DNA from: Marchantia polymorpha subsp. ruderalis
Taxonomy: Eukaryota; Streptophyta; Marchantiopsida; Marchantiales; Marchantiaceae
DNA: 64,000 bases
Assembly: GCA_037833965.1 (NCBI GenBank)
Contig: AP031357.1
Span: forward strand, 5,910,001-5,974,000
Direction: 5' to 3'
Part shown: positions 8,604-58,973 of the stretch, piece by piece
How positions within the stretch are numbered: the stretch's first letter is position 1
How the letters are laid out: each line of letters starts with the position of its first letter
The notes under the pieces: model-generated
Seen by the model: only the letters and a program-made list of their open reading frames with translations
Databases searched by the model: none
Told to the model about the DNA's origin: nothing
Made by a program: the position numbers and the translations under genes

Positions 8604-9641
8604 TGTGAGCCGAACCTTCCCACCCTTCAGCGGTTGTAGTCCAGGTGGGGGTTCGAGCTCCCATAATCTAACTTCGCTGAATTCAAGCCATGTACTCAAA
8701 GTGTATTCAGGACAATGAGATCATAAACACTTGCTCCTTCACAGACAAATTATCCAGAACTGAAAATAATAACCTTGCTGTCTACTATTTTCGCAAGAGC
8801 ATCAGACAAGCTCTTTGTTACATAAAGATCTAACCCAACTCTGGGTGACTTCCTCAATACTACAGCCGCTGTGGGCTTTCCTAGATACCAGTCCCACTCC
8901 CAATTCCTACTCAAAGTTCAATGTCGACTTCTCAGCTCCCACCTTCAGACCCCACCAGATTTCTCTCTCGGATTCAACTCTCACTTTTCAAGTTCAAATT
9001 CAGATCCCGACTGTCAGATTTCAGTCTCAGATTTCACTTCACTCACATCTCCCACTCTCAGGTCTTCCACTCTGATCTCAGCTCCCAGGCCGAGCACACC
9101 ACTTCCGTCTCCACACACGCACACCACCAGCCCTCGCACACTGGTACACTACAAGCTCTCGCACACTAGGCCGAACACACCACCAGGTCTCAGCTCCCAC
9201 GCCGAACTCTCCACTTCGAAGTCCAAGGCCGAGACACCCACAGCCCGCCTGCATGCCCCACTCGCAATGGTGGATAGCTGCCTGCTCCCCCTGCGCGACT
9301 ACACGCCGCCGCCGCCGCCACACCTGTACATTCTACATCCTGACCACCCGATATCCGCCGGAGGGGATCTTCTTCCGCGCACCGCCGAAGGCATCCACCC
9401 GTAGAAGACGCACGACCACACCTTTGCTTATCCATAACAGTCACTCCCGACACCCATAACTCACAGACCCTAGCTCTGTTTCACAAGTTCGTGGGCTCGT
9501 TGGAACGAGCAGGTCGAGCTCTTTCCAACGAGACCCTAACTGAGTCAAACCGTTACGAATTGAGAAAGTTATGCCGGTTTTACCCTTCGCCGAAGGCGCC
9601 GGCACGAAGTTCGCCGACCTCGAGTTCTCCGGAGGCGGGTT

Positions 9642-9746
9642 TTCCGGTTTGATGTCTTCTGGTTGGATAGCTTCCGGTTGGATATCTTCCGGTGAGATAG
9701 CTTCCGGTTGGATAGCTTCCGGTTCGATGTCTTCCGGTTGGATGTT
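9642..9746. repeat. 15-bp minisatellite in LTR (about 7 units)
   Basis: Unit TTCCGGTTGGATAGC with small variations, seven times head to tail. Because the period is a multiple of three it reads as a repeated SGWIA-type pentapeptide in one frame; no evidence that this is translated. Confidence 0.9.
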
Positions 9747-10006
9747 GTCCTACCCTATCTGCCGCTTTCGACGCTCATAACTCAGTGACGCCTTATCCGT
9801 TTGAAGAGTTCTTGGTCTCGTTGGAACGAGCGTCGCGAGTTCTTTCCAACGAGACCCTAATCAAGTCAAACCGTTAACAAATGAAAAAGATATGCCGAGT
9901 TTACTGTTTCGCCGATGGCCCTTGCACGATGTTCACCGGCTCGGAGTTCGCCGACCCCGAGTTCGCCGAAGGCCTGCTCGCAGTTGTCGCGAAGTCGTCC
10001 GAAGCC

Positions 10007-10121
10007 GAAGATGTTCGCAGCCGGAGACCCCCGGTGCCGAAGACGTTCGCAGCCGGAGACGTTCGCAGCCGGAGACTTGGAGCCGAAGACGTTCGCAGCC
10101 GGAGATGTTCGCAACCGGACT
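10007..10121. repeat. Minisatellite in LTR, GTTCGCAGCCGGAGA unit
   Basis: Five or six copies of an 18-base-type unit GACGTTCGCAGCCGGAGA, irregularly spaced, some separated by CCGAA. Present in all six LTRs. Confidence 0.85.
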
Positions 10122-10486
10122 TGCCTCAACCCTTCCCATCAGTAACTTCCGACACTCACAACTCAGTGATTCCTCATCCGTTTGAAGAGTTCTTGGTCTC
10201 GTTGGAACGAGCGTTGCGAGCTCTTTCCAAGGAGACACTAACTGAGTCAAGGAGTCACACATTGAAAACGTTATGAGGGTTTCACTGTTTCGCCGAAGGC
10301 CTTTCCCCGAAGGAACTTCACCGAAGGCTCTTCGCCGGAGACCCTGCCCTGAAAGCCCCGTTCCGGACCTTTGCCTACTAGCTATTACACCAACTCCTAA
10401 TCTTACCAAAACTTCCAGAAAACTCCGAGCATAATTTTGCAAGAGCTTAAATCTAAAACTTTAACTCTCACAAGGTTAAAAAGACA

Positions 10487-10510
10487 TGTGAGCACAATTT
10501 TGTGCTCACA
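10487..10510. repeat. Palindromic LTR terminus
   Basis: Arms TGTGAGCACAA and TTGTGCTCACA separated by two bases. The outer seven bases on each side are the same as the LTR terminal inverted repeat, so the LTR end carries a second, inward copy of its own terminus. Confidence 0.92.
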
Positions 10511-10567
10511 TCATTGGCGACCATCAGGGGAAGATTCCAGAATCCTAGCTCTGCAGGCTAGACAGCT

Positions 10568-13500
10568 TCAAATCCGGTACTGCTTGCATCTACTTCCCGC
10601 AGTGCGTGTGGGGAAAACTTCTCCATTCAACGTTTCCAACTGCACTGAGTTGTTTGGAAATACCTCACGAATCAGATAAGGCCCTAACCATACTGCATCA
10701 AACTTTCCTGGGAACTCAAGCTTCCTACCATCCTGGAGCATCACCATCATACCTGGCCTCAGCGTCCTTTTCTTATGCTTCTTGTCAAAGGTGATTTTTC
10801 TCCTCCGTTGAATGGCCTCAATATGTTGAGCACTCATTCTCCTCCTCTCATCAAGCTCTTCTAATGTCGTCAGCCTATTCCTTAATGACTGACTGTTTGT
10901 AAGCCGTGACTGCACTGCAACTCGGAGTGATTCCACCTCGAATTCGATGGGGAGAGTGGCCTCCAATCCATACACTAACGAAAACGGCGTTGCCTGTGTT
11001 GTCACCTTGAAAGTTGTCCGATAAGCCCACAATGCTGCTGTCAGCTTGGTGTCCCAATCCCTTTTTGAGTCAACCACCGTTTTGCGAAGAATACTCACCA
11101 GAGTCCCATTGACTCGCTCTGTCTGACCATTGGTTTGTGGATGATATGGAGTAGTTTTTCTGTGATCTATCTCAAACCTATCTGTTAATTCTTGAAACAT
11201 CTCATTCAAGAAGTGCCTGCCCCTATCGCTAACCAGAATCTTGGGACATCCAAACCTTGAAATGATGTTTTCGTACATGAATGTGGCAGCATGAGCAGCC
11301 GTATTCGTCTTCACCGCTTTTGCTTCCGCCCACTTTGTCAAGTATTCTGTCGCAACTATGATGTAAGCCATGCCTTTTGACGAATGAGGATGAATCTCAC
11401 CGATATAATCAATTCCCCATTTTTCAAAAGGTACAAGTGGCAATGAAACGTGTAGAGGCATCTCCATTCGAAGGTCATTCCTAGCATACCTCTGACAGGC
11501 ATCACAGCGCTTCACATATTCATGAGAGTCCCTAAACAACCTAGGCCAGAAGTATCCCGCTCTAAGTATTTTCTGACCTGTAAGTTGGCCAGAGAAATGT
11601 CCTCCACAAGCACTGTCGTGGCAAGCCTCTAAAATTGCAGGAACCTCCACTTCTGACACACACCTTCTCAGAACACCATCAGCTCCCCTTCTAAACAATC
11701 TGTGGCCAATCACTGCAAAATGTCTACTGTTGACTCTCACCTTCCTCCTTTCCTCCTTAGTCCAATCACCTGACAACTGCTGAGTTGTCAAAAACTCTAC
11801 TATTCCAGCGTACCATTCTGGCTGAGCTGTGACTACAAAAAGACTATCATCTATCAACCTATCATCTAATGGACTGGTCCCTACATCCTCCGACAACCTA
11901 GATAGATGGTCGGCCTGCAAGTGCATGCGACCAGGTTTATACTCTACAGTGTAGTCAAATTCCTCCAGCAATAAAACCCACCTGGCCAATCTTCCACTAA
12001 GCTCCGCCTTGTTCACCAGATATTTGATTGCCATATGATCAACGAAGAAAACCACTGGATTGCAGATCAGATAATGTCTAAACTTCTTGACTGAAAAAAC
12101 CATGGCCAAGCACTCCCTCTCAGTAGTAGAATAGTTCCTCTCTGCTGGATTCAACTGCCTACTGGCATAAGCGATTGGCAGGTCCTTCCCCTTCTCCCCT
12201 GTAGACTGACATAACGCACTACCCACTGCTACACTACTTGCATCACAGAAAACGTGAAAAGGCATGCTCCAGTCAGGAGGCCTCAACACCGGATAAGTAC
12301 TCAACCTGGACTTCAACTCTTCAAAAGCTTCTTGACAAGCATCTGTCCACTCAAACCTGTTCTCCTTCCTCAACAGTTGAGTAATAGGCACTACAATCTT
12401 GGCAAAGTCAGGAATCAACTCTCTATACCACCCTACATGTCCCAATAACTTGGCTACACCCTTAGTATTCGTGGGAGTTGCCAATCCTTCAATGACTGCA
12501 ATCTTATCAGGATCCGGTTCTCTTCCCTTCTCACTCACGACATAACCCAAAAGTACTCCTCTCTGAACACCTAGGAATGTCTTCTCAGGATTCAGAGCTA
12601 GCTGCATTCTTCTACATCTAATGAGAGCTTCTCTAACACACTGCAGATGCTCACCAGCACTTGACTGAGTGCTAAAATCGTCCACAAAAACTGTCATAGA
12701 CTTGTATAACAGATCTGTGAAAATATACATCACTAACCTTTGGAATGTGGCAGGTGCATTGCACAATCCGAAAGGCATAACAACCCATACAAAAGTTCCC
12801 CACGGAGTTGTGAAGGCTGTCTTATGAACATCCTGTACAGCTATGGAAATCTGATTGTAGCCAGCATATCCATCCATGAATGTGTACCTCGCATGACCCC
12901 CAACTTCCTCCAAAAGCAGCGTGATAAAAGGTAAAGGAAAGTGATCCTTCTCAGTACAGGCATTCAGCTTCCTATAATCCACACACACTCTAAGTTTCCC
13001 ATTCTTCTTCTTGACCAAAACCATAGGAGAAACCCAATCCGTGATCTCTACAGGCTTGATGAATCCAGCTTTGAGTAATCTCTCCAATTCTGCTCGAACT
13101 AACAACTGTAACTGTGGGTTCATCCTTCTCTCCTTCTGTCTAATAGGCTTAGCTCCAGGGACCAGCGAAATCCGATGCTCCACCATTTCACGAGGTACTC
13201 CCTTCAACTCATCATACGACCAAGCAAAGGTATCACTGAATTCGTCCACCAACTCACCATATTTCTGTATCTCATCCTCTCCTAGCTTGGAACCCATCTT
13301 CATTTGCTTCAGTTCTCCTCCTCTGATGGACACCTCCACATATTTCCAGTCTTCTTCTGCCACATGAGTTTGTTCCTCTGAGCTTTGATACCAATCTGGA
13401 GGGACCTGAGGATAATCCCTGACGTCTTGGCCCACCACAATTCCGGTTGATGTAGTCCTGAAATGCAAGGGTTCCTCCAACTTCGCATTTTTCACAGTAG

Positions 13501-16500
13501 TCTCCTCCTCTTGAGTTCCATCAACATGCACCGAATCCACCTCAGTAATATCCAACTCGTCCAACCATGGAGTGAGACCTCCATGTATCCACTCTTCCTC
13601 CATAAGAACCTCACATGGTTCTAGCAACAGATACTCTTCTCGCTGTGAACTGATCACCTCCTTCTCAAAAATTTTGTGATGAGAAATCATCATGGCGTCA
13701 CAACCTGACTCAGGATAATCTCTCAACCACTGAGCAAACTCTCCATCATCGCTTCTGCTGTAAAAACTAGGGCCCAAGCTACCTGATCCTACATCTAATC
13801 TATTTTTTCTGTCATTCAAATGAACCACTCCCACTAAAGTGTCATCACACTTGGCCTCGTTTTTCTCTTCTTCCTTCCCTGAAGATAACTCAGGATCCTC
13901 TCTCACCCTTCCACCTAATGACCCTATTGACACCTTGACTCTGTTATCATGAGGACCATATGTGATTGATGGCTTCAGTCCTCCCCAATCCACAATTGCA
14001 TTAGCCATTCTCAACCAAGGTCTGCCCAATAGAATGGGAAAGGTGTCCCTGTTCGAATGCATCTTAATCACATGAAATGTGACAATGTACTCCTCACCAC
14101 CAGTGGACAACCTGCAATCTTTAATCATCCCCACTGGTACAGCTGAAGTCTGATTGGCCATATTGATAATGAAAGGTGAGGGGCCTGTCAGATTCAAACC
14201 TAACTTTCTCATGGTGTGTTCAGGTAGGATGTTCAAACCACTACCCCCATCAACTAATACATTGGGAATCACCTTGTCTACCACTACCACCTCTATCTCC
14301 ACAGGTTTGACATCCTGACTTCCTTTTTGCAAATGAACTCTAGCAGCGACTCTAGTCTTCGTCTTTCTACTCCTTCTATGCACTGGAATGCCCTCCTTCA
14401 AAGTCTTACGAGCAATGGGAGATATTTCCAGCAGCTGACCAAAAGTAATGTCTGCCTTCAGCGAACTCAGATCTGACCACAAATTGTACTTCTCCGACTC
14501 TCTCCTTCTCTGACCTCTCATGTTCTTCCACTCTGTCACAGGAATCCCAGGTCCTTCCCACTCTCGTGATTGATTGCTTTCTGAATCTTGCGTGACAGGT
14601 GGCACCTCTGCATCATGTAGAACCTCATCTCTTTTCTCCTCTGCTCTTGTAATCCTCCTTGCTCTCCTCGCCACTCTCTCAAGATCAGAGAGATGAGGAG
14701 GCTCCTCAGATGAAGTCTCCCCTTGCTCATCTTCATTTTTCTCAGTTTGCATCTTGCGATGCACAGCTCTGGTGGTGACAGCAAGGGCCGGAGCTTCATG
14801 CATAATCACATCATCCGAATTTTTCAACTTATAAGTAATCAGATTAGTATGTGGAGGCCACTGATTCTGCCCTTGTTCAACTATCCCCTTACCAAGATCA
14901 GAACTACTACGTTGGACATCTCCATCATCGTTTGCAAACCTAGCATCTTGAGAGTTTGAAGAACATGGATCTGCAAAAGAAACCTGTTTTCTGTTGTCAC
15001 TACGAGGTTCATCTCGTGGTTCACTCTGGATGGGAATATATCTGTTCACTGTCTGCAGTCCAACAGGTGGATTGAATGTCTGTTTGCCGTTCTCATGATC
15101 ATAATACAAGTTAGAAGGTCTAAGATTGTTAGAATGCTCATTCTGCGGTCTTGCACCCCTCATATTTTCTCTCGCCTGGTAAGGACTAACAGTAGGCTGA
15201 GGCATCCTAATAACTTTATCTGGCTGCCGACATTGGTCAGAGGGATGACTACCTCCACAATTACTACACCCATTAACCCCAACCTCAGACCAACACTGAC
15301 CTGGATAGTGCCACCTACCACAAAATGCATGTAATTCTTTTCTCTCCATGTTCTGACCAACCTGACCCCTAGGAGGTACTCTGTACCCGTTTTGACCTTG
15401 GTAATTTGGTCCTTGGCCCCTTTGGTGTTGCACAGGTGGGCCACCGCTCATTCTGTTGTCACGGTTTGGCACCACCCTACAAAATTGCCTGGTATGACCA
15501 GATTGACCACACTGGACACACCACATGCTTGATGAATGTCTACCTGACTCGACTGGAGGAGGAGGCCCTGGCTGTTGACTCCTGATCATCAAGGCCATCT
15601 GATCTGTAATATTTTGCATTTGCTTCATCATGGTCTCTTGAAAGCCCACTTGGCTAGCATTTAATCTTTTCTCTACATCTGCCAGGTTAGGATCTACAGT
15701 AGGGGCTGGCAATGCTAAAACAGGTGCTGGCTCTCTGGTCTGCGAAATTGACTCACTGAGAGAATAGGGAGCTTGACCCCTATGCCTACCTAAGTCTCCT
15801 TCAATTGCTCTTGGACGAATTGGGATGAACTGAGGAATGGATTCATCCTCCTTCCTCCACAATCTATCATAGTCCTTGTCAATATTCTCTATCTCCCTGG
15901 CAGCCATCTTGGCCTCAGCAAGAGTTTGAGGGCTTCTCTCCAGCACCCCTCGGATGGTCCCAGATTTGAAAAAGCCTTGGATAAAAAATTGTCTCAGCGT
16001 ATCGTCATTGAGCATTGTACCCACAAAACGCGCACAAACCAGATCAAATCTTCTAATGTAAGCTGAGATTTCCTCTTCCCTTCCCTGTTTTAACGATGCC
16101 AAAGCTCTCAATGCAGAACCTTGCCCCACCTCAGGCCTAAACTCATTCAAGAACTCCCTTTGCATCTGATCCCATCCCCCAAAATGACCTTCAGAATGAT
16201 CCCTATACCACTCATACGCCTCACCTTCCAGGGTAGTAGGAAACCAGACCAAAAAATACCCTGGATCTGTAATCAGAGAGCTGGCTAGCCTCTCAACATA
16301 TCTTTCCATGTGCCTTGAAGGATCCTCATCCTTCGTCCCATAGAACTTAGGCAGATTGGGTGGCATGACCACAGCTGCCAAGTTCTGTGGAACCTGAATA
16401 GGAAGGCCTCTTGGCCTCACGAGTGGGTCTATGGGAGGACTAGAAGGAGGTCCTGCTCTCCCTCCATCGTCAGCCATGCTAGCAGATTCCTCCACCAACC

Positions 16501-16687
16501 TCTCACTGTCAGGTTCTACAATCTCTAAACCTTCTAACAAAGACTCATCAACAGGGTCTACGTTCAGAAATATCTCAAGTTTAATTTCTTCCTCGATTTC
16601 CTTATTCTCAGGTTTCTTCCTACTGCGAACAGGTTTCTCCAATCCTGGCTCCAGGTTTGGTTTGTGCGATCTAGTCCTATTCTGCAT
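10568..16687 (-). CDS. Gag-Pol polyprotein, array unit 1
   Basis: 2039 residues in one uninterrupted frame, ATG 16687, TGA at 10570-10568. Order: Gag about 100-280; zinc knuckles 390-403 (CX2CX4HX4C) and 474-486 (CX2CX3HX4C variant); retroviral-type aspartic protease with LVDGG at 811-815; reverse transcriptase about 1190-1385 with FVDD at 1334-1337; RNase H about 1475-1600 (D1482, TERE motif, D1550); integrase with HHCC (H1690, H1697, C1728, C1731) and DD35E core D1760, D1821, E1857; GPY at 2002-2004. This domain order (integrase last) is Ty3/Gypsy. The start lies only 13 nt after the primer-binding site; M71 is an alternative Gag start. All catalytic residues are present, so the unit looks coding-competent. 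It makes the capsid, matures it, copies the RNA and integrates the DNA. Confidence 0.95.
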   Translation of the reverse strand: MQNRTRSHKPNLEPGLEKPVRSRKKPENKEIEEEIKLEIFLNVDPVDESLLEGLEIVEPDSERLVEESASMADDGGRAGPPSSPPIDPLVRPRGLPIQVPQNLAAVVMPPNLPKFYGTKDEDPSRHMERYVERLASSLITDPGYFLVWFPTTLEGEAYEWYRDHSEGHFGGWDQMQREFLNEFRPEVGQGSALRALASLKQGREEEISAYIRRFDLVCARFVGTMLNDDTLRQFFIQGFFKSGTIRGVLERSPQTLAEAKMAAREIENIDKDYDRLWRKEDESIPQFIPIRPRAIEGDLGRHRGQAPYSLSESISQTREPAPVLALPAPTVDPNLADVEKRLNASQVGFQETMMKQMQNITDQMALMIRSQQPGPPPPVESGRHSSSMWCVQCGQSGHTRQFCRVVPNRDNRMSGGPPVQHQRGQGPNYQGQNGYRVPPRGQVGQNMERKELHAFCGRWHYPGQCWSEVGVNGCSNCGGSHPSDQCRQPDKVIRMPQPTVSPYQARENMRGARPQNEHSNNLRPSNLYYDHENGKQTFNPPVGLQTVNRYIPIQSEPRDEPRSDNRKQVSFADPCSSNSQDARFANDDGDVQRSSSDLGKGIVEQGQNQWPPHTNLITYKLKNSDDVIMHEAPALAVTTRAVHRKMQTEKNEDEQGETSSEEPPHLSDLERVARRARRITRAEEKRDEVLHDAEVPPVTQDSESNQSREWEGPGIPVTEWKNMRGQRRRESEKYNLWSDLSSLKADITFGQLLEISPIARKTLKEGIPVHRRSRKTKTRVAARVHLQKGSQDVKPVEIEVVVVDKVIPNVLVDGGSGLNILPEHTMRKLGLNLTGPSPFIINMANQTSAVPVGMIKDCRLSTGGEEYIVTFHVIKMHSNRDTFPILLGRPWLRMANAIVDWGGLKPSITYGPHDNRVKVSIGSLGGRVREDPELSSGKEEEKNEAKCDDTLVGVVHLNDRKNRLDVGSGSLGPSFYSRSDDGEFAQWLRDYPESGCDAMMISHHKIFEKEVISSQREEYLLLEPCEVLMEEEWIHGGLTPWLDELDITEVDSVHVDGTQEEETTVKNAKLEEPLHFRTTSTGIVVGQDVRDYPQVPPDWYQSSEEQTHVAEEDWKYVEVSIRGGELKQMKMGSKLGEDEIQKYGELVDEFSDTFAWSYDELKGVPREMVEHRISLVPGAKPIRQKERRMNPQLQLLVRAELERLLKAGFIKPVEITDWVSPMVLVKKKNGKLRVCVDYRKLNACTEKDHFPLPFITLLLEEVGGHARYTFMDGYAGYNQISIAVQDVHKTAFTTPWGTFVWVVMPFGLCNAPATFQRLVMYIFTDLLYKSMTVFVDDFSTQSSAGEHLQCVREALIRCRRMQLALNPEKTFLGVQRGVLLGYVVSEKGREPDPDKIAVIEGLATPTNTKGVAKLLGHVGWYRELIPDFAKIVVPITQLLRKENRFEWTDACQEAFEELKSRLSTYPVLRPPDWSMPFHVFCDASSVAVGSALCQSTGEKGKDLPIAYASRQLNPAERNYSTTERECLAMVFSVKKFRHYLICNPVVFFVDHMAIKYLVNKAELSGRLARWVLLLEEFDYTVEYKPGRMHLQADHLSRLSEDVGTSPLDDRLIDDSLFVVTAQPEWYAGIVEFLTTQQLSGDWTKEERRKVRVNSRHFAVIGHRLFRRGADGVLRRCVSEVEVPAILEACHDSACGGHFSGQLTGQKILRAGYFWPRLFRDSHEYVKRCDACQRYARNDLRMEMPLHVSLPLVPFEKWGIDYIGEIHPHSSKGMAYIIVATEYLTKWAEAKAVKTNTAAHAATFMYENIISRFGCPKILVSDRGRHFLNEMFQELTDRFEIDHRKTTPYHPQTNGQTERVNGTLVSILRKTVVDSKRDWDTKLTAALWAYRTTFKVTTQATPFSLVYGLEATLPIEFEVESLRVAVQSRLTNSQSLRNRLTTLEELDERRRMSAQHIEAIQRRRKITFDKKHKKRTLRPGMMVMLQDGRKLEFPGKFDAVWLGPYLIREVFPNNSVQLETLNGEVFPTRTAGSRCKQYRI

Positions 16688-16700
16688 TTACAAGATCAGG

Positions 16701-16718
16701 CTCCCGGCAGACGCACCA
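16701..16718 (-). other. Primer-binding site, unit 1
   Basis: Minus strand: LTR 2 end, 5-nt gap (TAAAA), then TGGTGCGTCTGCCGGGAG. Its complement has the layout of a tRNA 3' end: CCA, discriminator A, acceptor strand CAGACGC, T-stem CCCGG. The primer would be a tRNA starting GCGTCTG; I do not assign the amino acid with confidence. Confidence 0.75.
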
Positions 16719-16723
16719 TTTTA

Positions 16724-18630
16724 TGTGAGCCGAACCTTCCCACCCTTCAGCGGTTGTAGTCCAGGTGGGGGTTCGAGCTCCCATAATCTAACTTCGCTGA
16801 ATTCAAGCCATGTACTCAAAGTGTATTCAGGACAATGAGATCATAAACACTTGCTCCTTCACAGACAAATTATCCAGAACTGAAAATAATAACCTTGCTG
16901 TCTACTATTTTCGCAAGAGCATCAGACAAGCTCTTTGTTACATAAAGATCTAACCCAACTCTGGGTGACTTCCTCAATACTACAGCCGCTGTGGGCTTTC
17001 CTAGATACCAGTCCCACTCCCAATTCCTACTCAAAGTTCAATGTCGACTTCTCAGCTCCCACCTTCAGACCCCACCAGATTTCTCTCTCGGATTCAACTC
17101 TCACTTTTCAAGTTCAAATTCAGATCCCGACTGTCAGATTTCAGTCTCAGATTTCACTTCACTCACATCTCCCACTCTCAGGTCTTCCACTCTGATCTCA
17201 GCTCCCAGGCCGAGCACACCACTTCCGTCTCCACACACGCACACCACCAGCCCTCGCACACTGGTACACTACAAGCTCTCGCACACTAGGCCGAACACAC
17301 CACCAGGTCTCAGCTCCCACGCCGAACTCTCCACTTCGAAGTCCAAGGCCGAGACACCCACAGCCCGCCTGCATGCCCCACTCGCAATGGTGGATAGCTG
17401 CCTGCTCCCCCTGCGCGACTACACGCCGCCGCCGCCGCCACACCTGTACATTCTACATCCTGACCACCCGATATCCGCCGGAGGGGATCTTCTTCCGCGC
17501 ACCGCCGAAGGCATCCACCCGTAGAAGACGCACGACCACACCTTTGCTTATCCATAACAGTCACTCCCGACACCCATAACTCACAGACCCTAGCTCTGTT
17601 TCACAAGTTCGTGGGCTCGTTGGAACGAGCAGGTCGAGCTCTTTCCAACGAGACCCTAACTGAGTCAAACCGTTACGAATTGAGAAAGTTATGCCGGTTT
17701 TACCCTTCGCCGAAGGCGCCGGCACGAAGTTCGCCGACCTCGAGTTCTCCGGAGGCGGGTTTTCCGGTTTGATGTCTTCTGGTTGGATAGCTTCCGGTTG
17801 GATATCTTCCGGTGAGATAGCTTCCGGTTGGATAGCTTCCGGTTCGATGTCTTCCGGTTGGATGTTGTCCTACCCTATCTGCCGCTTTCGACGCTCATAA
17901 CTCAGTGACGCCTTATCCGTTTGAAGAGTTCTTGGTCTCGTTGGAACGAGCGTCGCGAGTTCTTTCCAACGAGACCCTAATCAAGTCAAACCGTTAACAA
18001 ATGAAAAAGATATGCCGAGTTTACTGTTTCGCCGATGGCCCTTGCACGATGTTCACCGGCTCGGAGTTCGCCGACCCCGAGTTCGCCGAAGGCCTGCTCG
18101 CAGTTGTCGCGAAGTCGTCCGAAGCCGAAGATGTTCGCAGCCGGAGACCCCCGGTGCCGAAGACGTTCGCAGCCGGAGACGTTCGCAGCCGGAGACTTGG
18201 AGCCGAAGACGTTCGCAGCCGGAGATGTTCGCAACCGGACTTGCCTCAACCCTTCCCATCAGTAACTTCCGACACTCACAACTCAGTGATTCCTCATCCG
18301 TTTGAAGAGTTCTTGGTCTCGTTGGAACGAGCGTTGCGAGCTCTTTCCAAGGAGACACTAACTGAGTCAAGGAGTCACACATTGAAAACGTTATGAGGGT
18401 TTCACTGTTTCGCCGAAGGCCTTTCCCCGAAGGAACTTCACCGAAGGCTCTTCGCCGGAGACCCTGCCCTGAAAGCCCCGTTCCGGACCTTTGCCTACTA
18501 GCTATTACACCAACTCCTAATCTTACCAAAACTTCCAGAAAACTCCGAGCATAATTTTGCAAGAGCTTAAATCTAAAACTTTAACTCTCACAAGGTTAAA
18601 AAGACATGTGAGCACAATTTTGTGCTCACA
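16724..18630 (-). repeat. Array LTR 2 (shared by units 1 and 2)
   Basis: No difference from LTR 1 noticed. It is the 5' LTR of unit 1 and the 3' LTR of unit 2. Confidence 0.95.
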
Positions 18631-18687
18631 TCATTGGCGACCATCAGGGGAAGATTCCAGAATCCTAGCTCTGCAGGCTAGACAGCT

Positions 18688-41862: not shown

Positions 41863-41871
41863 AAGATTTCA

Positions 41872-46638: not shown

Positions 46639-46646
46639 TTCCAACT

Positions 46647-46648
<2 letters not shown>

Positions 46649-47987: not shown

Positions 47988-47991
47988 AAAA

Positions 47992-48849
47992 TGCAACCTC
48001 CGGGCTGACTCTCACTCAGGTTTACCTCTGGTGGCTTTGTGGTAGCGCATCATGGTTCTAGAAGACTAAGATTCATACTCTCACTCATGTCCCAAACACC
48101 TTCTCTTACAAACTCTCATGTATCACTCCAACTCACACACAACTCTCCTCACATCACCCTCTTCACATAAATGCAAACACACGTCGATACTCCAAGATAC
48201 TCAAAAACTTCACTCCTTCATTACTGAAACAAGTCCTCACACATGACTCTCCAAACTTGCTTGAGAGGTGCTACTCTACCTCTCTATTTATACTACTTGA
48301 GAAGTTACCATAGTAACATGTGGTAATTTCTCCTAACTTACTTTTACCTAGGTAAGTTTGACTAACCTTCTCTACGTGGCAACATGCCATTGGCCTACCT
48401 AAACCTTCTAGAAGCTTCCGGAATCCAAGGTTGAGGTGGCGACATGCCATTGGAAGCTTTTAAACTTCTACAAGCTTCCTAGCCACTAAGTCAACATTAG
48501 ACTTAGTCTAGCCAATCATCTTTCATACATTTAGTCAAACCAATCAAATCCAAGCTTCTAGTCAAATATCTAATCCCTTGGAATCTAGAACTTTTGTATA
48601 AGACAAAATAGAAGTGCTCACTCCTTGTAAAAGACAAAATAGAAGTGCTCACTCCATTCTTCTAGAACTCCGCTAATTATTCCGCCAACTATAGACATTG
48701 TAGCTAAACTTAGTCATGACTAGATAAACTTAGTTATAACTAACTAGTTTAGTCATAACTAGCTAGTCTTAGCTATGCCTTGGCTAATCATCCTTATTCC
48801 CTTGACCACTTCTAAGACTTAGTACATATGTGCAACACCCGGTCTTACA
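47992..48849 (-). repeat. Nested element 5' LTR
   Basis: 858 bp, one base different from the 3' LTR (48031 G against 41030 A), pointing to a recent insertion. Confidence 0.95.
48285..48292 (-). promoter_or_regulatory. TATA box in 5' LTR of nested element
   Basis: TATAAATA on the minus strand in the context AGTATAAATAGAG; a start site would be expected about 25-30 bases downstream, near 48255. This would place the primer-binding site some 270 bases into the RNA. Confidence 0.65.
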
Positions 48850-48853
48850 GAAC
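48850..48853. repeat. Target site duplication of nested element, right
   Basis: GAAC, the second copy of 40987-40990; unit 4 resumes with AGGTTTCTCC. Confidence 0.9.
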
Positions 48854-48946
48854 AGGTTTCTCCAATCCTGGCTCCAGGTTTGGTTTGTGCGATCTAGTCC
48901 TATTCTGCATTTACAAGATCAGGCTCCCGGCAGACGCACCATTTTA

Positions 48947-50853
48947 TGTGAGCCGAACCTTCCCACCCTTCAGCGGTTGTAGTCCAGGTGGGGGTTCGAG
49001 CTCCCATAATCTAACTTCGCTGAATTCAAGCCATGTACTCAAAGTGTATTCAGGACAATGAGATCATAAACACTTGCTCCTTCACAGACAAATTATCCAG
49101 AACTGAAAATAATAACCTTGCTGTCTACTATTTTCGCAAGAGCATCAGACAAGCTCTTTGTTACATAAAGATCTAACCCAACTCTGGGTGACTTCCTCAA
49201 TACTACAGCCGCTGTGGGCTTTCCTAGATACCAGTCCCACTCCCAATTCCTACTCAAAGTTCAATGTCGACTTCTCAGCTCCCACCTTCAGACCCCACCA
49301 GATTTCTCTCTCGGATTCAACTCTCACTTTTCAAGTTCAAATTCAGATCCCGACTGTCAGATTTCAGTCTCAGATTTCACTTCACTCACATCTCCCACTC
49401 TCAGGTCTTCCACTCTGATCTCAGCTCCCAGGCCGAGCACACCACTTCCGTCTCCACACACGCACACCACCAGCCCTCGCACACTGGTACACTACAAGCT
49501 CTCGCACACTAGGCCGAACACACCACCAGGTCTCAGCTCCCACGCCGAACTCTCCACTTCGAAGTCCAAGGCCGAGACACCCACAGCCCGCCTGCATGCC
49601 CCACTCGCAATGGTGGATAGCTGCCTGCTCCCCCTGCGCGACTACACGCCGCCGCCGCCGCCACACCTGTACATTCTACATCCTGACCACCCGATATCCG
49701 CCGGAGGGGATCTTCTTCCGCGCACCGCCGAAGGCATCCACCCGTAGAAGACGCACGACCACACCTTTGCTTATCCATAACAGTCACTCCCGACACCCAT
49801 AACTCACAGACCCTAGCTCTGTTTCACAAGTTCGTGGGCTCGTTGGAACGAGCAGGTCGAGCTCTTTCCAACGAGACCCTAACTGAGTCAAACCGTTACG
49901 AATTGAGAAAGTTATGCCGGTTTTACCCTTCGCCGAAGGCGCCGGCACGAAGTTCGCCGACCTCGAGTTCTCCGGAGGCGGGTTTTCCGGTTTGATGTCT
50001 TCTGGTTGGATAGCTTCCGGTTGGATATCTTCCGGTGAGATAGCTTCCGGTTGGATAGCTTCCGGTTCGATGTCTTCCGGTTGGATGTTGTCCTACCCTA
50101 TCTGCCGCTTTCGACGCTCATAACTCAGTGACGCCTTATCCGTTTGAAGAGTTCTTGGTCTCGTTGGAACGAGCGTCGCGAGTTCTTTCCAACGAGACCC
50201 TAATCAAGTCAAACCGTTAACAAATGAAAAAGATATGCCGAGTTTACTGTTTCGCCGATGGCCCTTGCACGATGTTCACCGGCTCGGAGTTCGCCGACCC
50301 CGAGTTCGCCGAAGGCCTGCTCGCAGTTGTCGCGAAGTCGTCCGAAGCCGAAGATGTTCGCAGCCGGAGACCCCCGGTGCCGAAGACGTTCGCAGCCGGA
50401 GACGTTCGCAGCCGGAGACTTGGAGCCGAAGACGTTCGCAGCCGGAGATGTTCGCAACCGGACTTGCCTCAACCCTTCCCATCAGTAACTTCCGACACTC
50501 ACAACTCAGTGATTCCTCATCCGTTTGAAGAGTTCTTGGTCTCGTTGGAACGAGCGTTGCGAGCTCTTTCCAAGGAGACACTAACTGAGTCAAGGAGTCA
50601 CACATTGAAAACGTTATGAGGGTTTCACTGTTTCGCCGAAGGCCTTTCCCCGAAGGAACTTCACCGAAGGCTCTTCGCCGGAGACCCTGCCCTGAAAGCC
50701 CCGTTCCGGACCTTTGCCTACTAGCTATTACACCAACTCCTAATCTTACCAAAACTTCCAGAAAACTCCGAGCATAATTTTGCAAGAGCTTAAATCTAAA
50801 ACTTTAACTCTCACAAGGTTAAAAAGACATGTGAGCACAATTTTGTGCTCACA
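48947..50853 (-). repeat. Array LTR 5 (shared by units 4 and 5)
   Basis: No difference from LTR 1 noticed. It is the 5' LTR of the interrupted unit 4; that unit's primer-binding site is at 48924-48941. Confidence 0.95.
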
Positions 50854-50910
50854 TCATTGGCGACCATCAGGGGAAGATTCCAGAATCCTAGCTCTGCAGG
50901 CTAGACAGCT

Positions 50911-53900
50911 TCAAATCCGGTACTGCTTGCATCTACTTCCCGCAGTGCGTGTGGGGAAAACTTCTCCATTCAACGTTTCCAACTGCACTGAGTTGTTTGG
51001 AAATACCTCACGAATCAGATAAGGCTCTAACCATACTGCATCAAACTTTCTTGGGAACTCAAGCTTCCTACCATCCTGGAGCATCACCATCATACCTGGC
51101 CTCAGCGTCCTTTTCTTATGCTTCTTGTCAAAGGTGATTTTTCTCCTCCGTTGAATGGCCTCAATATGTTGAGCACTCATTCTCCTCCTCTCATCAAGCT
51201 CTTCTAATGTCGTCAGCCTATTCCTTAATGACTGACTGTTTGTAAGCCGTGACTGCACTGCAACTCGGAGTGATTCCACCTCGAATTCGATGGGGAGAGT
51301 GGCCTCCAATCCATACACTAACGAAAACGGCGTTGCCTGTGTTGTCACCTTGAAAGTTGTCCGATAAGCCCACAATGCTGCTGTCAGCTTGGTGTCCCAA
51401 TCCCTTTTTGAGTCAACCACCGTTTTGCGAAGAATACTCACCAGAGTCCCATTGACTCGCTCTGTCTGACCATTGGTTTGTGGATGATATGGAGTAGTTT
51501 TTCTGTGATCTATCTCAAACCTATCTGTTAATTCTTGAAACATCTCATTCAAGAAGTGCCTGCCCCTATCGCTAACCAGAATCTTGGGACATCCAAACCT
51601 TGAAATGATGTTTTCGTACATGAATGTGGCAGCATGAGCAGCCGTATTCGTCTTCACCGCTTTTGCTTCCGCCCACTTTGTCAAGTATTCTGTCGCAACT
51701 ATGATGTAAGCCATGCCTTTTGACGAATGAGGATGAATCTCACCGATATAATCAATTCCCCATTTTTCAAAAGGTACAAGTGGCAATGAAACGTGTAGAG
51801 GCATCTCCATTCGAAGGTCATTCCTAGCATACCTCTGACAGGCATCACAGCGCTTCACATATTCATGAGAGTCCCTAAACAACCTAGGCCAGAAGTATCC
51901 CGCTCTAAGTATTTTCTGACCTGTAAGTTGGCCAGAGAAATGTCCTCCACAAGCACTGTCGTGGCAAGCCTCTAAAATTGCAGGAACCTCCACTTCTGAC
52001 ACACACCTTCTCAGAACACCATCAGCTCCCCTTCTAAACAATCTGTGGCCAATCACTGCAAAATGTCTACTGTTGACTCTCACCTTCCTCCTTTCCTCCT
52101 TAGTCCAATCACCTGACAACTGCTGAGTTGTCAAAAACTCTACTATTCCAGCGTACCATTCTGGCTGAGCTGTGACTACAAAAAGACTATCATCTATCAA
52201 CCTATCATCTAATGGACTGGTCCCTACATCCTCCGACAACCTAGATAGATGGTCGGCCTGCAAGTGCATGCGACCAGGTTTATACTCTACAGTGTAGTCA
52301 AATTCCTCCAGCAATAAAACCCACCTGGCCAATCTTCCACTAAGCTCCGCCTTGTTCACCAGATATTTGATTGCCATATGATCAACGAAGAAAACCACTG
52401 GATTGCAGATCAGATAATGTCTAAACTTCTTGACTGAAAAAACCATGGCCAAGCACTCCCTCTCAGTAGTAGAATAGTTCCTCTCTGCTGGATTCAACTG
52501 CCTACTGGCATAAGCGATTGGCAGGTCCTTCCCCTTCTCCCCTGTAGACTGACATAACGCACTACCCACTGCTACACTACTTGCATCACAGAAAACGTGA
52601 AAAGGCATGCTCCAGTCAGGAGGCCTCAACACCGGATAAGTACTCAACCTGGACTTCAACTCTTCAAAAGCTTCTTGACAAGCATCTGTCCACTCAAACC
52701 TGTTCTCCTTCCTCAACAGTTGAGTAATAGGCACTACAATCTTGGCAAAGTCAGGAATCAACTCTCTATACCACCCTACATGTCCCAATAACTTGGCTAC
52801 ACCCTTAGTATTCGTGGGAGTTGCCAATCCTTCAATGACTGCAATCTTATCAGGATCCGGTTCTCTTCCCTTCTCACTCACGACATAACCCAAAAGTACT
52901 CCTCTCTGAACACCTAGGAATGTCTTCTCAGGATTCAGAGCTAGCTGCATTCTTCTACATCTAATGAGAGCTTCTCTAACACACTGCAGATGCTCACCAG
53001 CACTTGACTGAGTGCTAAAATCGTCCACAAAAACTGTCATAGACTTGTATAACAGATCTGTGAAAATATACATCACTAACCTTTGGAATGTGGCAGGTGC
53101 ATTGCACAATCCGAAAGGCATAACAACCCATACAAAAGTTCCCCACGGAGTTGTGAAGGCTGTCTTATGAACATCCTGTACAGCTATGGAAATCTGATTG
53201 TAGCCAGCATATCCATCCATGAATGTGTACCTCGCATGACCCCCAACTTCCTCCAAAAGCAGCGTGATAAAAGGTAAAGGAAAGTGATCCTTCTCAGTAC
53301 AGGCATTCAGCTTCCTATAATCCACACACACTCTAAGTTTCCCATTCTTCTTCTTGACCAAAACCATAGGAGAAACCCAATCCGTGATCTCTACAGGCTT
53401 GATGAATCCAGCTTTGAGTAATCTCTCCAATTCTGCTCGAACTAACAACTGTAACTGTGGGTTCATCCTTCTCTCCTTCTGTCTAATAGGCTTAGCTCCA
53501 GGGACCAGCGAAATCCGATGCTCCACCATTTCACGAGGTACTCCCTTCAACTCATCATACGACCAAGCAAAGGTATCACTGAATTCGTCCACCAACTCAC
53601 CATATTTCTGTATCTCATCCTCTCCTAGCTTGGAACCCATCTTCATTTGCTTCAGTTCTCCTCCTCTGATGGACACCTCCACATATTTCCAGTCTTCTTC
53701 TGCCACATGAGTTTGTTCCTCTGAGCTTTGATACCAATCTGGAGGGACCTGAGGATAATCCCTGACGTCTTGGCCCACCACAATTCCGGTTGATGTAGTC
53801 CTGAAATGCAAGGGTTCCTCCAACTTCGCATTTTTCACAGTAGTCTCCTCCTCTTGAGTTCCATCAACATGCACCGAATCCACCTCAGTAATATCCAACT

Positions 53901-56900
53901 CGTCCAACCATGGAGTGAGACCTCCATGTATCCACTCTTCCTCCATAAGAACCTCACATGGTTCTAGCAACAGATACTCTTCTCGCTGTGAACTGATCAC
54001 CTCCTTCTCAAAAATTTTGTGATGAGAAATCATCATGGCGTCACAACCTGACTCAGGATAATCTCTCAACCACTGAGCAAACTCTCCATCATCGCTTCTG
54101 CTGTAAAAACTAGGGCCCAAGCTACCTGATCCTACATCTAATCTATTTTTTCTGTCATTCAAATGAACCACTCCCACTAAAGTGTCATCACACTTGGCCT
54201 CGTTTTTCTCTTCTTCCTTCCCTGAAGATAACTCAGGATCCTCTCTCACCCTTCCACCTAATGACCCTATTGACACCTTGACTCTGTTATCATGAGGACC
54301 ATATGTGATTGATGGCTTCAGTCCTCCCCAATCCACAATTGCATTAGCCATTCTCAACCAAGGTCTGCCCAATAGAATGGGAAAGGTGTCCCTGTTCGAA
54401 TGCATCTTAATCACATGAAATGTGACAATGTACTCCTCACCACCAGTGGACAACCTGCAATCTTTAATCATCCCCACTGGTACAGCTGAAGTCTGATTGG
54501 CCATATTGATAATGAAAGGTGAGGGGCCTGTCAGATTCAAACCTAACTTTCTCATGGTGTGTTCAGGTAGGATGTTCAAACCACTACCCCCATCAACTAA
54601 TACATTGGGAATCACCTTGTCTACCACTACCACCTCTATCTCCACAGGTTTGACATCCTGACTTCCTTTTTGCAAATGAACTCTAGCAGCGACTCTAGTC
54701 TTCGTCTTTCTACTCCTTCTATGCACTGGAATGCCCTCCTTCAAAGTCTTACGAGCAATGGGAGATATTTCCAGCAGCTGACCAAAAGTAATGTCTGCCT
54801 TCAGCGAACTCAGATCTGACCACAAATTGTACTTCTCCGACTCTCTCCTTCTCTGACCTCTCATGTTCTTCCACTCTGTCACAGGAATCCCAGGTCCTTC
54901 CCACTCTCGTGATTGATTGCTTTCTGAATCTTGCGTGACAGGTGGCACCTCTGCATCATGTAGAACCTCATCTCTTTTCTCCTCTGCTCTTGTAATCCTC
55001 CTTGCTCTCCTCGCCACTCTCTCAAGATCAGAGAGATGAGGAGGCTCCTCAGATGAAGTCTCCCCTTGCTCATCTTCATTTTTCTCAGTTTGCATCTTGC
55101 GATGCACAGCTCTGGTGGTGACAGCAAGGGCCGGAGCTTCATGCATAATCACATCATCCGAATTTTTCAACTTATAAGTAATCAGATTAGTATGTGGAGG
55201 CCACTGATTCTGCCCTTGTTCAACTATCCCCTTACCAAGATCAGAACTACTACGTTGGACATCTCCATCATCGTTTGCAAACCTAGCATCTTGAGAGTTT
55301 GAAGAACATGGATCTGCAAAAGAAACCTGTTTTCTGTTGTCACTACGAGGTTCATCTCGTGGTTCACTCTGGATGGGAATATATCTGTTCACTGTCTGCA
55401 GTCCAACAGGTGGATTGAATGTCTGTTTGCCGTTCTCATGATCATAATACAAGTTAGAAGGTCTAAGATTGTTAGAATGCTCATTCTGCGGTCTTGCACC
55501 CCTCATATTTTCTCTCGCCTGGTAAGGACTAACAGTAGGCTGAGGCATCCTAATAACTTTATCTGGCTGCCGACATTGGTCAGAGGGATGACTACCTCCA
55601 CAATTACTACACCCATTAACCCCAACCTCAGACCAACACTGACCTGGATAGTGCCACCTACCACAAAATGCATGTAATTCTTTTCTCTCCATGTTCTGAC
55701 CAACCTGACCCCTAGGAGGTACTCTGTACCCGTTTTGACCTTGGTAATTTGGTCCTTGGCCCCTTTGGTGTTGCACAGGTGGGCCACCGCTCATTCTGTT
55801 GTCACGGTTTGGCACCACCCTACAAAATTGCCTGGTATGACCAGATTGACCACACTGGACACACCACATGCTTGATGAATGTCTACCTGACTCGACTGGA
55901 GGAGGAGGCCCTGGCTGTTGACTCCTGATCATCAAGGCCATCTGATCTGTAATATTTTGCATTTGCTTCATCATGGTCTCTTGAAAGCCCACTTGGCTAG
56001 CATTTAATCTTTTCTCTACATCTGCCAGGTTAGGATCTACAGTAGGGGCTGGCAATGCTAAAACAGGTGCTGGCTCTCTGGTCTGCGAAATTGACTCACT
56101 GAGAGAATAGGGAGCTTGACCCCTATGCCTACCTAAGTCTCCTTCAATTGCTCTTGGACGAATTGGGATGAACTGAGGAATGGATTCATCCTCCTTCCTC
56201 CACAATCTATCATAGTCCTTGTCAATATTCTCTATCTCCCTGGCAGCCATCTTGGCCTCAGCAAGAGTTTGAGGGCTTCTCTCCAGCACCCCTCGGATGG
56301 TCCCAGATTTGAAAAAGCCTTGGATAAAAAATTGTCTCAGCGTATCGTCATTGAGCATTGTACCCACAAAACGCGCACAAACCAGATCAAATCTTCTAAT
56401 GTAAGCTGAGATTTCCTCTTCCCTTCCCTGTTTTAACGATGCCAAAGCTCTCAATGCAGAACCTTGCCCCACCTCAGGCCTAAACTCATTCAAGAACTCC
56501 CTTTGCATCTGATCCCATCCCCCAAAATGACCTTCAGAATGATCCCTATACCACTCATACGCCTCACCTTCCAGGGTAGTAGGAAACCAGACCAAAAAAT
56601 ACCCTGGATCTGTAATCAGAGAGCTGGCTAGCCTCTCAACATATCTTTCCATGTGCCTTGAAGGATCCTCATCCTTCGTCCCATAGAACTTAGGCAGATT
56701 GGGTGGCATGACCACAGCTGCCAAGTTCTGTGGAACCTGAATAGGAAGGCCTCTTGGCCTCACGAGTGGGTCTATGGGAGGACTAGAAGGAGGTCCTGCT
56801 CTCCCTCCATCGTCAGCCATGCTAGCAGATTCCTCCACCAACCTCTCACTGTCAGGTTCTACAATCTCTAAACCTTCTAACAAAGACTCATCAACAGGGT

Positions 56901-57030
56901 CTACGTTCAGAAATATCTCAAGTTTAATTTCTTCCTCGATTTCCTTATTCTCAGGTTTCTTCCTACTGCGAACAGGTTTCTCCAATCCTGGCTCCAGGTT
57001 TGGTTTGTGCGATCTAGTCCTATTCTGCAT
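50911..57030 (-). CDS. Gag-Pol polyprotein, array unit 5
   Basis: 2039 residues, same organisation as unit 1, with two private substitutions near the integrase C-terminus: G1994R (51051, plus-strand C to T) and G2002E (51026, plus-strand C to T). G2002 is the glycine of the GPY/F motif, a conserved part of the integrase C-terminal domain, so this unit's integrase may be impaired while units 1-3 keep the intact motif. Protease, RT, RNase H and the DD35E core are unchanged. Internal domain 50854-57066; primer-binding site 57044-57061. Its 5' LTR is LTR 6 at the right-hand outer edge, so it is the first unit that would be transcribed from the array's outer promoter. Confidence 0.93.
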   Translation of the reverse strand: MQNRTRSHKPNLEPGLEKPVRSRKKPENKEIEEEIKLEIFLNVDPVDESLLEGLEIVEPDSERLVEESASMADDGGRAGPPSSPPIDPLVRPRGLPIQVPQNLAAVVMPPNLPKFYGTKDEDPSRHMERYVERLASSLITDPGYFLVWFPTTLEGEAYEWYRDHSEGHFGGWDQMQREFLNEFRPEVGQGSALRALASLKQGREEEISAYIRRFDLVCARFVGTMLNDDTLRQFFIQGFFKSGTIRGVLERSPQTLAEAKMAAREIENIDKDYDRLWRKEDESIPQFIPIRPRAIEGDLGRHRGQAPYSLSESISQTREPAPVLALPAPTVDPNLADVEKRLNASQVGFQETMMKQMQNITDQMALMIRSQQPGPPPPVESGRHSSSMWCVQCGQSGHTRQFCRVVPNRDNRMSGGPPVQHQRGQGPNYQGQNGYRVPPRGQVGQNMERKELHAFCGRWHYPGQCWSEVGVNGCSNCGGSHPSDQCRQPDKVIRMPQPTVSPYQARENMRGARPQNEHSNNLRPSNLYYDHENGKQTFNPPVGLQTVNRYIPIQSEPRDEPRSDNRKQVSFADPCSSNSQDARFANDDGDVQRSSSDLGKGIVEQGQNQWPPHTNLITYKLKNSDDVIMHEAPALAVTTRAVHRKMQTEKNEDEQGETSSEEPPHLSDLERVARRARRITRAEEKRDEVLHDAEVPPVTQDSESNQSREWEGPGIPVTEWKNMRGQRRRESEKYNLWSDLSSLKADITFGQLLEISPIARKTLKEGIPVHRRSRKTKTRVAARVHLQKGSQDVKPVEIEVVVVDKVIPNVLVDGGSGLNILPEHTMRKLGLNLTGPSPFIINMANQTSAVPVGMIKDCRLSTGGEEYIVTFHVIKMHSNRDTFPILLGRPWLRMANAIVDWGGLKPSITYGPHDNRVKVSIGSLGGRVREDPELSSGKEEEKNEAKCDDTLVGVVHLNDRKNRLDVGSGSLGPSFYSRSDDGEFAQWLRDYPESGCDAMMISHHKIFEKEVISSQREEYLLLEPCEVLMEEEWIHGGLTPWLDELDITEVDSVHVDGTQEEETTVKNAKLEEPLHFRTTSTGIVVGQDVRDYPQVPPDWYQSSEEQTHVAEEDWKYVEVSIRGGELKQMKMGSKLGEDEIQKYGELVDEFSDTFAWSYDELKGVPREMVEHRISLVPGAKPIRQKERRMNPQLQLLVRAELERLLKAGFIKPVEITDWVSPMVLVKKKNGKLRVCVDYRKLNACTEKDHFPLPFITLLLEEVGGHARYTFMDGYAGYNQISIAVQDVHKTAFTTPWGTFVWVVMPFGLCNAPATFQRLVMYIFTDLLYKSMTVFVDDFSTQSSAGEHLQCVREALIRCRRMQLALNPEKTFLGVQRGVLLGYVVSEKGREPDPDKIAVIEGLATPTNTKGVAKLLGHVGWYRELIPDFAKIVVPITQLLRKENRFEWTDACQEAFEELKSRLSTYPVLRPPDWSMPFHVFCDASSVAVGSALCQSTGEKGKDLPIAYASRQLNPAERNYSTTERECLAMVFSVKKFRHYLICNPVVFFVDHMAIKYLVNKAELSGRLARWVLLLEEFDYTVEYKPGRMHLQADHLSRLSEDVGTSPLDDRLIDDSLFVVTAQPEWYAGIVEFLTTQQLSGDWTKEERRKVRVNSRHFAVIGHRLFRRGADGVLRRCVSEVEVPAILEACHDSACGGHFSGQLTGQKILRAGYFWPRLFRDSHEYVKRCDACQRYARNDLRMEMPLHVSLPLVPFEKWGIDYIGEIHPHSSKGMAYIIVATEYLTKWAEAKAVKTNTAAHAATFMYENIISRFGCPKILVSDRGRHFLNEMFQELTDRFEIDHRKTTPYHPQTNGQTERVNGTLVSILRKTVVDSKRDWDTKLTAALWAYRTTFKVTTQATPFSLVYGLEATLPIEFEVESLRVAVQSRLTNSQSLRNRLTTLEELDERRRMSAQHIEAIQRRRKITFDKKHKKRTLRPGMMVMLQDGRKLEFPRKFDAVWLEPYLIREVFPNNSVQLETLNGEVFPTRTAGSRCKQYRI

Positions 57031-57066
57031 TTACAAGATCAGGCTCCCGGCAGACGCACCATTTTA

Positions 57067-58973
57067 TGTGAGCCGAACCTTCCCACCCTTCAGCGGTTGT
57101 AGTCCAGGTGGGGGTTCGAGCTCCCATAATCTAACTTCGCTGAATTCAAGCCATGTACTCAAAGTGTATTCAGGACAATGAGATCATAAACACTTGCTCC
57201 TTCACAGACAAATTATCCAGAACTGAAAATAATAACCTTGCTGTCTACTATTTTCGCAAGAGCATCAGACAAGCTCTTTGTTACATAAAGATCTAACCCA
57301 ACTCTGGGTGACTTCCTCAATACTACAGCCGCTGTGGGCTTTCCTAGATACCAGTCCCACTCCCAATTCCTACTCAAAGTTCAATGTCGACTTCTCAGCT
57401 CCCACCTTCAGACCCCACCAGATTTCTCTCTCGGATTCAACTCTCACTTTTCAAGTTCAAATTCAGATCCCAACTGTCAGATTTCAGTCTCAGATTTCAC
57501 TTCACTCACATCTCCCACTCTCAGGTCTTCCACTCTGATCTCAGCTCCCAGGCCGAGCACACCACTTCCGTCTCCACACACGCACACCACCAGCCCTCGC
57601 ACACTGGTACACTACAAGCTCTCGCACACTAGGCCGAACACACCACCAGGTCTCAGCTCCCACGCCGAACTCTCCACTTCGAAGTCCAAGGCCGAGACAC
57701 CCACAGCCCGCCTGCATGCCCCACTCGCAATGGTGGATAGCTGCCTGCTCCCCCTGCGCGACTACACGCCGCCGCCGCCGCCACACCTGTACATTCTACA
57801 TCCTGACCACCCGATATCCGCCGGAGGGGATCTTCTTCCGCGCACCGCCGAAGGCATCCACCCGTAGAAGACGCACGACCACACCTTTGCTTATCCATAA
57901 CAGTCACTCCCGACACCCATAACTCACAGACCCTAGCTCTGTTTCACAAGTTCGTGGGCTCGTTGGAACGAGCAGGTCGAGCTCTTTCCAACGAGACCCT
58001 AACTGAGTCAAACCGTTACGAATTGAGAAAGTTATGCCGGTTTTACCCTTCGCCGAAGGCGCCGGCACGAAGTTCGCCGACCTCGAGTTCTCCGGAGGCG
58101 GGTTTTCCGGTTTGATGTCTTCTGGTTGGATAGCTTCCGGTTGGATATCTTCCGGTGAGATAGCTTCCGGTTGGATAGCTTCCGGTTCGATGTCTTCCGG
58201 TTGGATGTTGTCCTACCCTATCTGCCGCTTTCGACGCTCATAACTCAGTGACGCCTTATCCGTTTGAAGAGTTCTTGGTCTCGTTGGAACGAGCGTCGCG
58301 AGTTCTTTCCAACGAGACCCTAATCAAGTCAAACCGTTAACAAATGAAAAAGATATGCCGAGTTTACTGTTTCGCCGATGGCCCTTGCACGATGTTCACC
58401 GGCTCGGAGTTCGCCGACCCCGAGTTCGCCGAAGGCCTGCTCGCAGTTGTCGCGAAGTCGTCCGAAGCCGAAGATGTTCGCAGCCGGAGACCCCCGGTGC
58501 CGAAGACGTTCGCAGCCGGAGACGTTCGCAGCCGGAGACTTGGAGCCGAAGACGTTCGCAGCCGGAGATGTTCGCAACCGGACTTGCCTCAACCCTTCCC
58601 ATCAGTAACTTCCGACACTCACAACTCAGTGATTCCTCATCCGTTTGAAGAGTTCTTGGTCTCGTTGGAACGAGCGTTGCGAGCTCTTTCCAAGGAGACA
58701 CTAACTGAGTCAAGGAGTCACACATTGAAAACGTTATGAGGGTTTCACTGTTTCGCCGAAGGCCTTTCCCCGAAGGAACTTCACCGAAGGCTCTTCGCCG
58801 GAGACCCTGCCCTGAAAGCCCCGTTCCGGACCTTTGCCTACTAGCTATTACACCAACTCCTAATCTTACCAAAACTTCCAGAAAACTCCGAGCATAATTT
58901 TGCAAGAGCTTAAATCTAAAACTTTAACTCTCACAAGGTTAAAAAGACATGTGAGCACAATTTTGTGCTCACA
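57067..58973 (-). repeat. Array LTR 6 (outer 5' LTR)
   Basis: One private change, A at 57472 where the others have G. Its end abuts the right target duplication TGCCA. Confidence 0.95.

Follow-up and report, generated by a model that had tools for sequence, protein, structure and literature searches.

Long terminal repeat (LTR) retrotransposons arranged in tandem are common in plants and in rice belong mostly to Gypsy; the survey describing them, in the sections considered here, leaves their mechanism undecided, and the loci that its pipeline accepted were capped at 40,000 bp (PMC11899658). Three-LTR structures are likewise mentioned for BARE1 (PMC7215508), a full-size autonomous Copia-type element with a shared middle LTR, for which recombination was proposed; the locus described here has six LTRs. 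It lies in the liverwort Marchantia polymorpha subsp. ruderalis, within a window of 64,000 nucleotides (contig AP031357.1 of assembly GCA_037833965.1, here C8:5910001-5974000; genome of 241,466,482 bases in 9 contigs), and is a head-to-tail array of an LTR retrotransposon that entered the genome once. Coordinates given without a contig are those of the window.

Comparing the window with itself at a shift of 8120 bases, we found 8603-32870 alike to 16723-40990 and 48850-50854 alike to 56970-58974, each with one difference, while units 4 and 5 were alike at a shift of 15983 (8120 plus the 7863 of a nested insertion), with three differences. The array spans 50.4 kb (8604..58973; 42.5 kb for the five-unit part without the nested element) and consists of six LTRs of 1907 bp, differing pairwise by 0-2 bases, in alternation with five internal regions of 6213 bp. 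Its outer boundaries read TGCCA/TGTGAG... on the left and ...CTCACA/TGCCA on the right, a target-site duplication (TSD) of 5 bp, and all inner LTRs have internal sequence on both sides, not TGCCA. These are the features of a tandem LTR retrotransposon, with n internal regions, n+1 LTRs, shared inner LTRs and one outer TSD. The units differ at four single bases (34234, 51026, 51051 and 57472). A preliminary description of the window had proposed five LTR-internal units with a terminal LTR at a period of 8120 bp, which the shift comparison bears out, and TGCCA at the outer ends only, in agreement with the internal sequence adjoining every inner LTR; its four base differences were recovered at the same positions, and its reading of a Ty3/Gypsy element with shared LTRs and a single target duplication accords with the Pfam order, the boundaries and the empty site given below. 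Repetition by chance is ruled out by a near-perfect match of 24 kb at one shift. The features are as follows.

8599..8603, no strand: left TSD TGCCA, which the empty site in the neighbouring inverted arm has only once
8604..10510, minus strand: LTR1, 1907 bp, TG..CA, the 3' end of the array in element sense (shift comparison)
10511..16723, minus strand: unit 1 internal region, 6213 bp, with open reading frame (ORF) 10568-16687 (2039 aa; gag, reverse transcriptase (RT), RNase H, integrase)
16724..18630, minus strand: LTR2, common to units 1 and 2 (shift comparison)
18631..24843, minus strand: unit 2 internal region, ORF 18688-24807
24844..26750, minus strand: LTR3, common to units 2 and 3 (shift comparison)
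26751..32963, minus strand: unit 3 internal region, ORF 26808-32927
32964..34870, minus strand: LTR4, common to units 3 and 4, with a private T>G at 34234
34871..40990, minus strand: larger part of the unit 4 internal region, its ORF interrupted by the nested element
40991..48849, minus strand: nested Ty3-type element, different from the array element (LTRs, target duplication, Pfam)
48850..48946, minus strand: remainder of the unit 4 internal region (primer-binding-site end), its first 4 bases being the nested element's target duplication
48947..50853, minus strand: LTR5, common to units 4 and 5 (shift comparison)
50854..57066, minus strand: unit 5 internal region, with private C>T at 51026 and 51051, ORF 50911-57030
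57067..58973, minus strand: LTR6, the 5' end of the array in element sense, with a private G>A at 57472
58974..58978, no strand: right TSD TGCCA (boundary inspection and empty site)

The integration itself is recorded next door. The left flank of the array is part of an inverted duplication (about 5 kb per arm, 95-98% identical, with a spacer of about 3.6 kb), pairing window positions 1-8603 with positions 5972-9000 of C8:5901001-5910000. The upstream arm aligns to both flanks of the array, at 97.5% over 1344 bp and 95.2% over 1698 bp, and on this arm the two alignments overlap by exactly five bases, TGCCA. The upstream arm is the empty site and, because TGCCA stands there once, the array entered the genome once. 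Several independent element insertions are ruled out by the one TSD and by the empty site with its single TGCCA. The insertion target is itself probably repeat-derived, since the frame at the flank belongs to a multicopy Marchantia family (all 23 matches with a named source, among 27 in total, were from Marchantia) and one of its relatives, matched over 27% of the query, also bears a gag domain. The open frame at the empty site gave no Pfam match, and neither did six further flank frames at E up to 0.01.

With respect to the number of units, at least three are anchored by marks, since the LTR4 mark is missing from LTR1 and both unit 4 and unit 5 carry marks; the exact figure of five would be the assembler's count. 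In fact, 25,631 bp without any distinguishing base separate the left flank from 34234, while the HiFi reads, which were assembled with hifiasm, average 14 kb and reach 51 kb at most, and the genome paper, in the sections considered here, reports an unresolved copy number at another tandem region (PMC13078153). All four differences fall in units 4-5 and LTR6, a part that makes up 43% of the array (P = 0.033) or, if it is taken to begin at 34234 itself, 40% (P = 0.025), both boundaries having been picked after inspection of the data; it looks as though a single sequence had been repeated to give units 1-3. From this clustering to the right one may suspect that units 1-3 either are younger copies or were counted too often by the assembler. 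An array that is real but holds three, four or more than five units would be compatible with either mechanism discussed below; yet the assembly has a quality value (QV) of 82.9, about 100x nuclear coverage and a haploid source (PMC13078153), some reads longer than 26 kb may exist, and the nested element together with the four single-base marks fixes the right-hand units in place. We regard such a miscount as improbable. The assembly error feared in the preliminary description is a fair concern for the unit count, given the markerless 25,631 bp, and not for the existence of the array. A tandem wholly artefactual, assembled from dispersed copies, could draw on near-identical single copies on C7 and C4, yet these lack all four marks, the TSD and empty site are consistent with a true insertion, and the same form is found at three other arrays with different sequences, so that we give this explanation hardly any weight.

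Each of the four differences is a derived base that occurs in a single unit. The majority base was present at 33 of 34, 31 of 32, 19 of 20 and 19 of 20 aligned loci (array units included, and some loci overlapping one another), the sole exception being each time the marked unit. Since the differences are absent from all other aligned loci, they arose after the units became separate. A mixture of different donor copies was rejected as far as tested, no array difference being present in the other copies aligned. The single element at C7:470470-480496 (TSD ATGAG) has LTRs equal to the commonest LTR of the array and one internal difference, and that at C4:3399385-3409411 (TSD CAGCC) has one difference common to both its LTRs and two internal ones; neither shares a difference with any array unit, and their own marks are absent from the array. 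Because these near-identical single elements have TSDs of their own and no shared differences, the family has, to judge from its sequences, been active recently.

Other arrays of the family were found by genome searches with a primer-binding-site pattern (up to 3 mismatches, 150 matches, 100 listed) and an internal-to-LTR junction pattern (128 matches, 100 listed). Among the matches listed, three loci have neighbours on the same strand at a spacing of about 8.1 kb, namely the window, one locus on C4 and one at 17.49-17.51 Mb of C5. The C4 array (C4:11097318-11117587) is a diverged one of three units, the third incomplete in the matched stretch; its left LTR end is worn, no outer TSD was established, and 3 bases separate the internal regions of units 1 and 2. 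At C5:17492556-17510486 two units with TSD GTCAA have internal regions identical over 6213 bp, LTR1 and LTR2 differ once, and LTR3 (C5:17508862-17510486) is about 315 bp shorter. Together the arrays, with the fourth one below, account for 12 of the 100 listed primer-binding sites, nested elements not counted.

The fourth array, at C5:22621506-22659836, is the most informative about mechanism. It has two composite units with a period of 18176, a common LTR between them and outer TSD CCCTC, each unit being a minus-sense element whose internal region holds a nested plus-sense relative from the same family. Since the same nested element sits at the same place, with the same CTGTA duplication, in both units, this array demonstrably grew, on the evidence of its sequence, as chromosomal DNA after the nested insertion. 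In the stretches compared, which took in a minor part of the nested internal region, 4 bases distinguish the units (two lie in the nested left LTR and two in a 2966-bp internal piece), and the first 3253 bp and the nested right LTR are identical. The nested element's own LTRs are one base apart in each unit, and because these single differences lie at different places, the two LTRs were identical when the unit was copied. The middle LTR of the array shows 0 differences from the right LTR and 4 from the left outer one, which is the pattern that a crossover product should show. Most simply, the array grew by exchange between the LTRs of the outer element.

Solo LTRs, the reciprocal product of such exchange, occur in the family as well, and therefore LTR-LTR exchange is not rare in it. 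The LTR 5'-end pattern had 438 matches, against 143 LTR-to-primer-binding-site and 128 internal-to-LTR junctions, leaving up to about 167 LTR ends without either junction, a rough figure since the patterns differ in sensitivity. Among the matches listed, 98 exact LTR 5' ends comprised 33 5' LTRs, 35 3' LTRs, 6 shared LTRs and 24 that were neither. Eight of these 24 were fetched, and six proved to be solo LTRs with a perfect 5-bp TSD; of the remaining two, one had a four-of-five TSD match (CCTTG/TCTTG) and the other no intact LTR end in the stretch. A solo LTR at C9:6704740-6707140 and the C5 array of composite units (bordered by C5:22659837-22659870) apparently stand in the same repeated target, a few bases apart. 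Moreover, two family elements in opposite orientation lie within 26 kb at C8:9333283-9359399, and closer neighbour pairs among the matches listed are 3838 bp apart on C3 and 106 bp apart on C6.

On balance we favour, with some confidence, one insertion followed by unequal LTR-LTR exchange between sister chromatids as the origin of the window array. One full-length Ty3-type element would have integrated once at a TGCCA site, after which its two identical 1907-bp LTRs may have mispaired between sister chromatids, or in the repair of a break. Unequal exchange would then add whole LTR-plus-internal units, giving one outer TSD and shared inner LTRs, and growth shortly after the insertion, or concentrated in a brief burst, would leave later point mutations and the nested insertion to mark single units. 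This reading is supported by the C5 array that duplicated after its nested insertion and by the solo LTRs of the family, and it is by analogy with that array that we infer exchange, and its timing, in the window. The preliminary description had listed unequal exchange and integration of a concatemer next to assembly error; the first is now favoured, on the C5 array and the solo LTRs, and the second is kept as a rival.

Several points weigh against this origin by exchange. No feature of the window array itself records an exchange, and no crossover point is visible because its LTRs were identical. Stepwise growth over time predicts some shared mutations; here 0 of 4 are, with P of 0.05 for a Kingman tree and 0.21 for Yule growth. 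Growth was probably fast, because none of the four mutations is shared, although these figures suggest that private mutations weigh only weakly against slow growth. At a mutation rate of 7e-9 per site per generation, which is not Marchantia's own, 4 changes in 42,507 bp correspond to about 13,000 generations as an order of magnitude.

Finally, a ready-made concatemer accounts equally well for the star pattern of private mutations. Here a multi-unit cDNA, produced when a tandem or circular template is read through its LTRs or when cDNAs are joined, would have been integrated once by integrase, with units identical at time zero. The single TSD with intact TG..CA outer ends fits such an event as well as the star-like mutations do; rice tandems have been tied to a single insertion with both routes held possible (PMC11899658), and Cassandra transcripts of two to five units are described (PMC7215508). 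However, a cDNA of 42.5 kb is about five times the normal genome, the multi-unit transcripts cited come from miniature elements, and at least one array of the family duplicated after insertion, no concatemer case having been seen here. We therefore consider one-step insertion an unlikely origin, and the specific case of a 42.5-kb, five-unit concatemer of a full-size autonomous element, formed ahead of integration and then inserted by integrase in a single event, still a little more doubtful. If it were true, plant Ty3 elements could package or assemble, and integrate, multi-genome DNA.

The array element reads on the minus strand, and its 2039-aa frame is open in units 1, 2, 3 and 5. By the predicted order of gag (149-238), RVT_1 (1225-1382), RNase H (1447-1577), H2C2 (1681-1735) and rve (1753-1850), that is gag, RT, RNase H and integrase in one frame, it is a Ty3/Gypsy LTR retrotransposon. 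Pattern matches place a CCHC zinc knuckle at 390, FVDD at 1334 and an HHCC integrase zinc site at 1690 of the frame, while an aspartic protease was found neither as a Pfam match nor as a D[ST]G[ASV] motif, and a chromodomain, the chromovirus mark at the integrase C-terminus, gave no Pfam match in the frame at E up to 0.001. The RT-RNase H part of the query is 88% identical to the M. polymorpha protein MPTK2_3g07970. A candidate primer-binding site, TGGTGCGTCTGCCGGGA, starts 5 bases past the 5' LTR, and no clear purine run that could serve as polypurine tract was seen beside the 3' LTR. The LTRs are of the TG..CA type with 5-bp TSDs (TGCCA here; ATGAG, CAGCC, GTCAA and CCCTC at sister loci). 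Each LTR of the array holds three 176-nt repeats (9433-10310 and copies), two of which are 69% and 79% identical to the third, and the LTRs of two other arrays have gaps within this repeat region. The LTR start in element sense is an almost perfect 24-base palindrome, TGTGAGCACAAAATTGTGCTCACA (10487-10510 and the other LTR ends). The nested element in unit 4 is 7859 bp long, is of Ty3 type but from a different family, and has frames of 1590 aa and 162 aa; its LTRs (40991-41848 and 47992-48849) show 1 difference, and its target duplication is of 4 bp, not 5 (GAAC at 40987-40990 and 48850-48853). Scans of the window with Rfam (gathering threshold) and for tRNAs gave nothing.

In Marchantia the haploid phase dominates and two accessions have high-quality references, and for this reason the present locus and its three sister arrays could decide how tandems originate; the C5 dimer with the nested elements already shows duplication after insertion within the family. 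The array, an extensive tract of young copies nearly identical to one another, could contract to a solo LTR or expand further, and structural mutation is thus measurable at this site.

A literature search for a tandem LTR element in Marchantia found none. The preliminary description had called such a five-fold array rare, a view to be tempered, as tandems are reported to be common in plants (PMC11899658) and three more arrays of the family are present among the matches listed. The tandems of rice and other plants (Morales-Diaz et al. 2025, PMC11899658) resemble the present one in the alternation of LTRs and internal regions, with an LTR at both ends, in near-identical units and, in the worked loci, in one 5-nt TSD. 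Those worked loci, in the sections considered here, are two dimers, whereas the Marchantia array has five units over 50.4 kb in a liverwort, and unlike them the Marchantia family includes one case of duplication after insertion. The kangaroo centromere and yeast LTR arrays cited in the same survey also share LTRs, with recombination proposed, in other hosts, the yeast route being an integrase-independent entry into an existing element. TRIM arrays such as maize L5I4 (PMC4717578), with TSDs, and Cassandra arrays of at least 12 repeats (PMC7215508) have the form LTR(n+1)-internal(n), as here; these are miniature, non-autonomous elements, whereas the Marchantia units are 8.1 kb long with a 2039-aa gag-pol frame. 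The Marchantia array is a long example of an already known arrangement.

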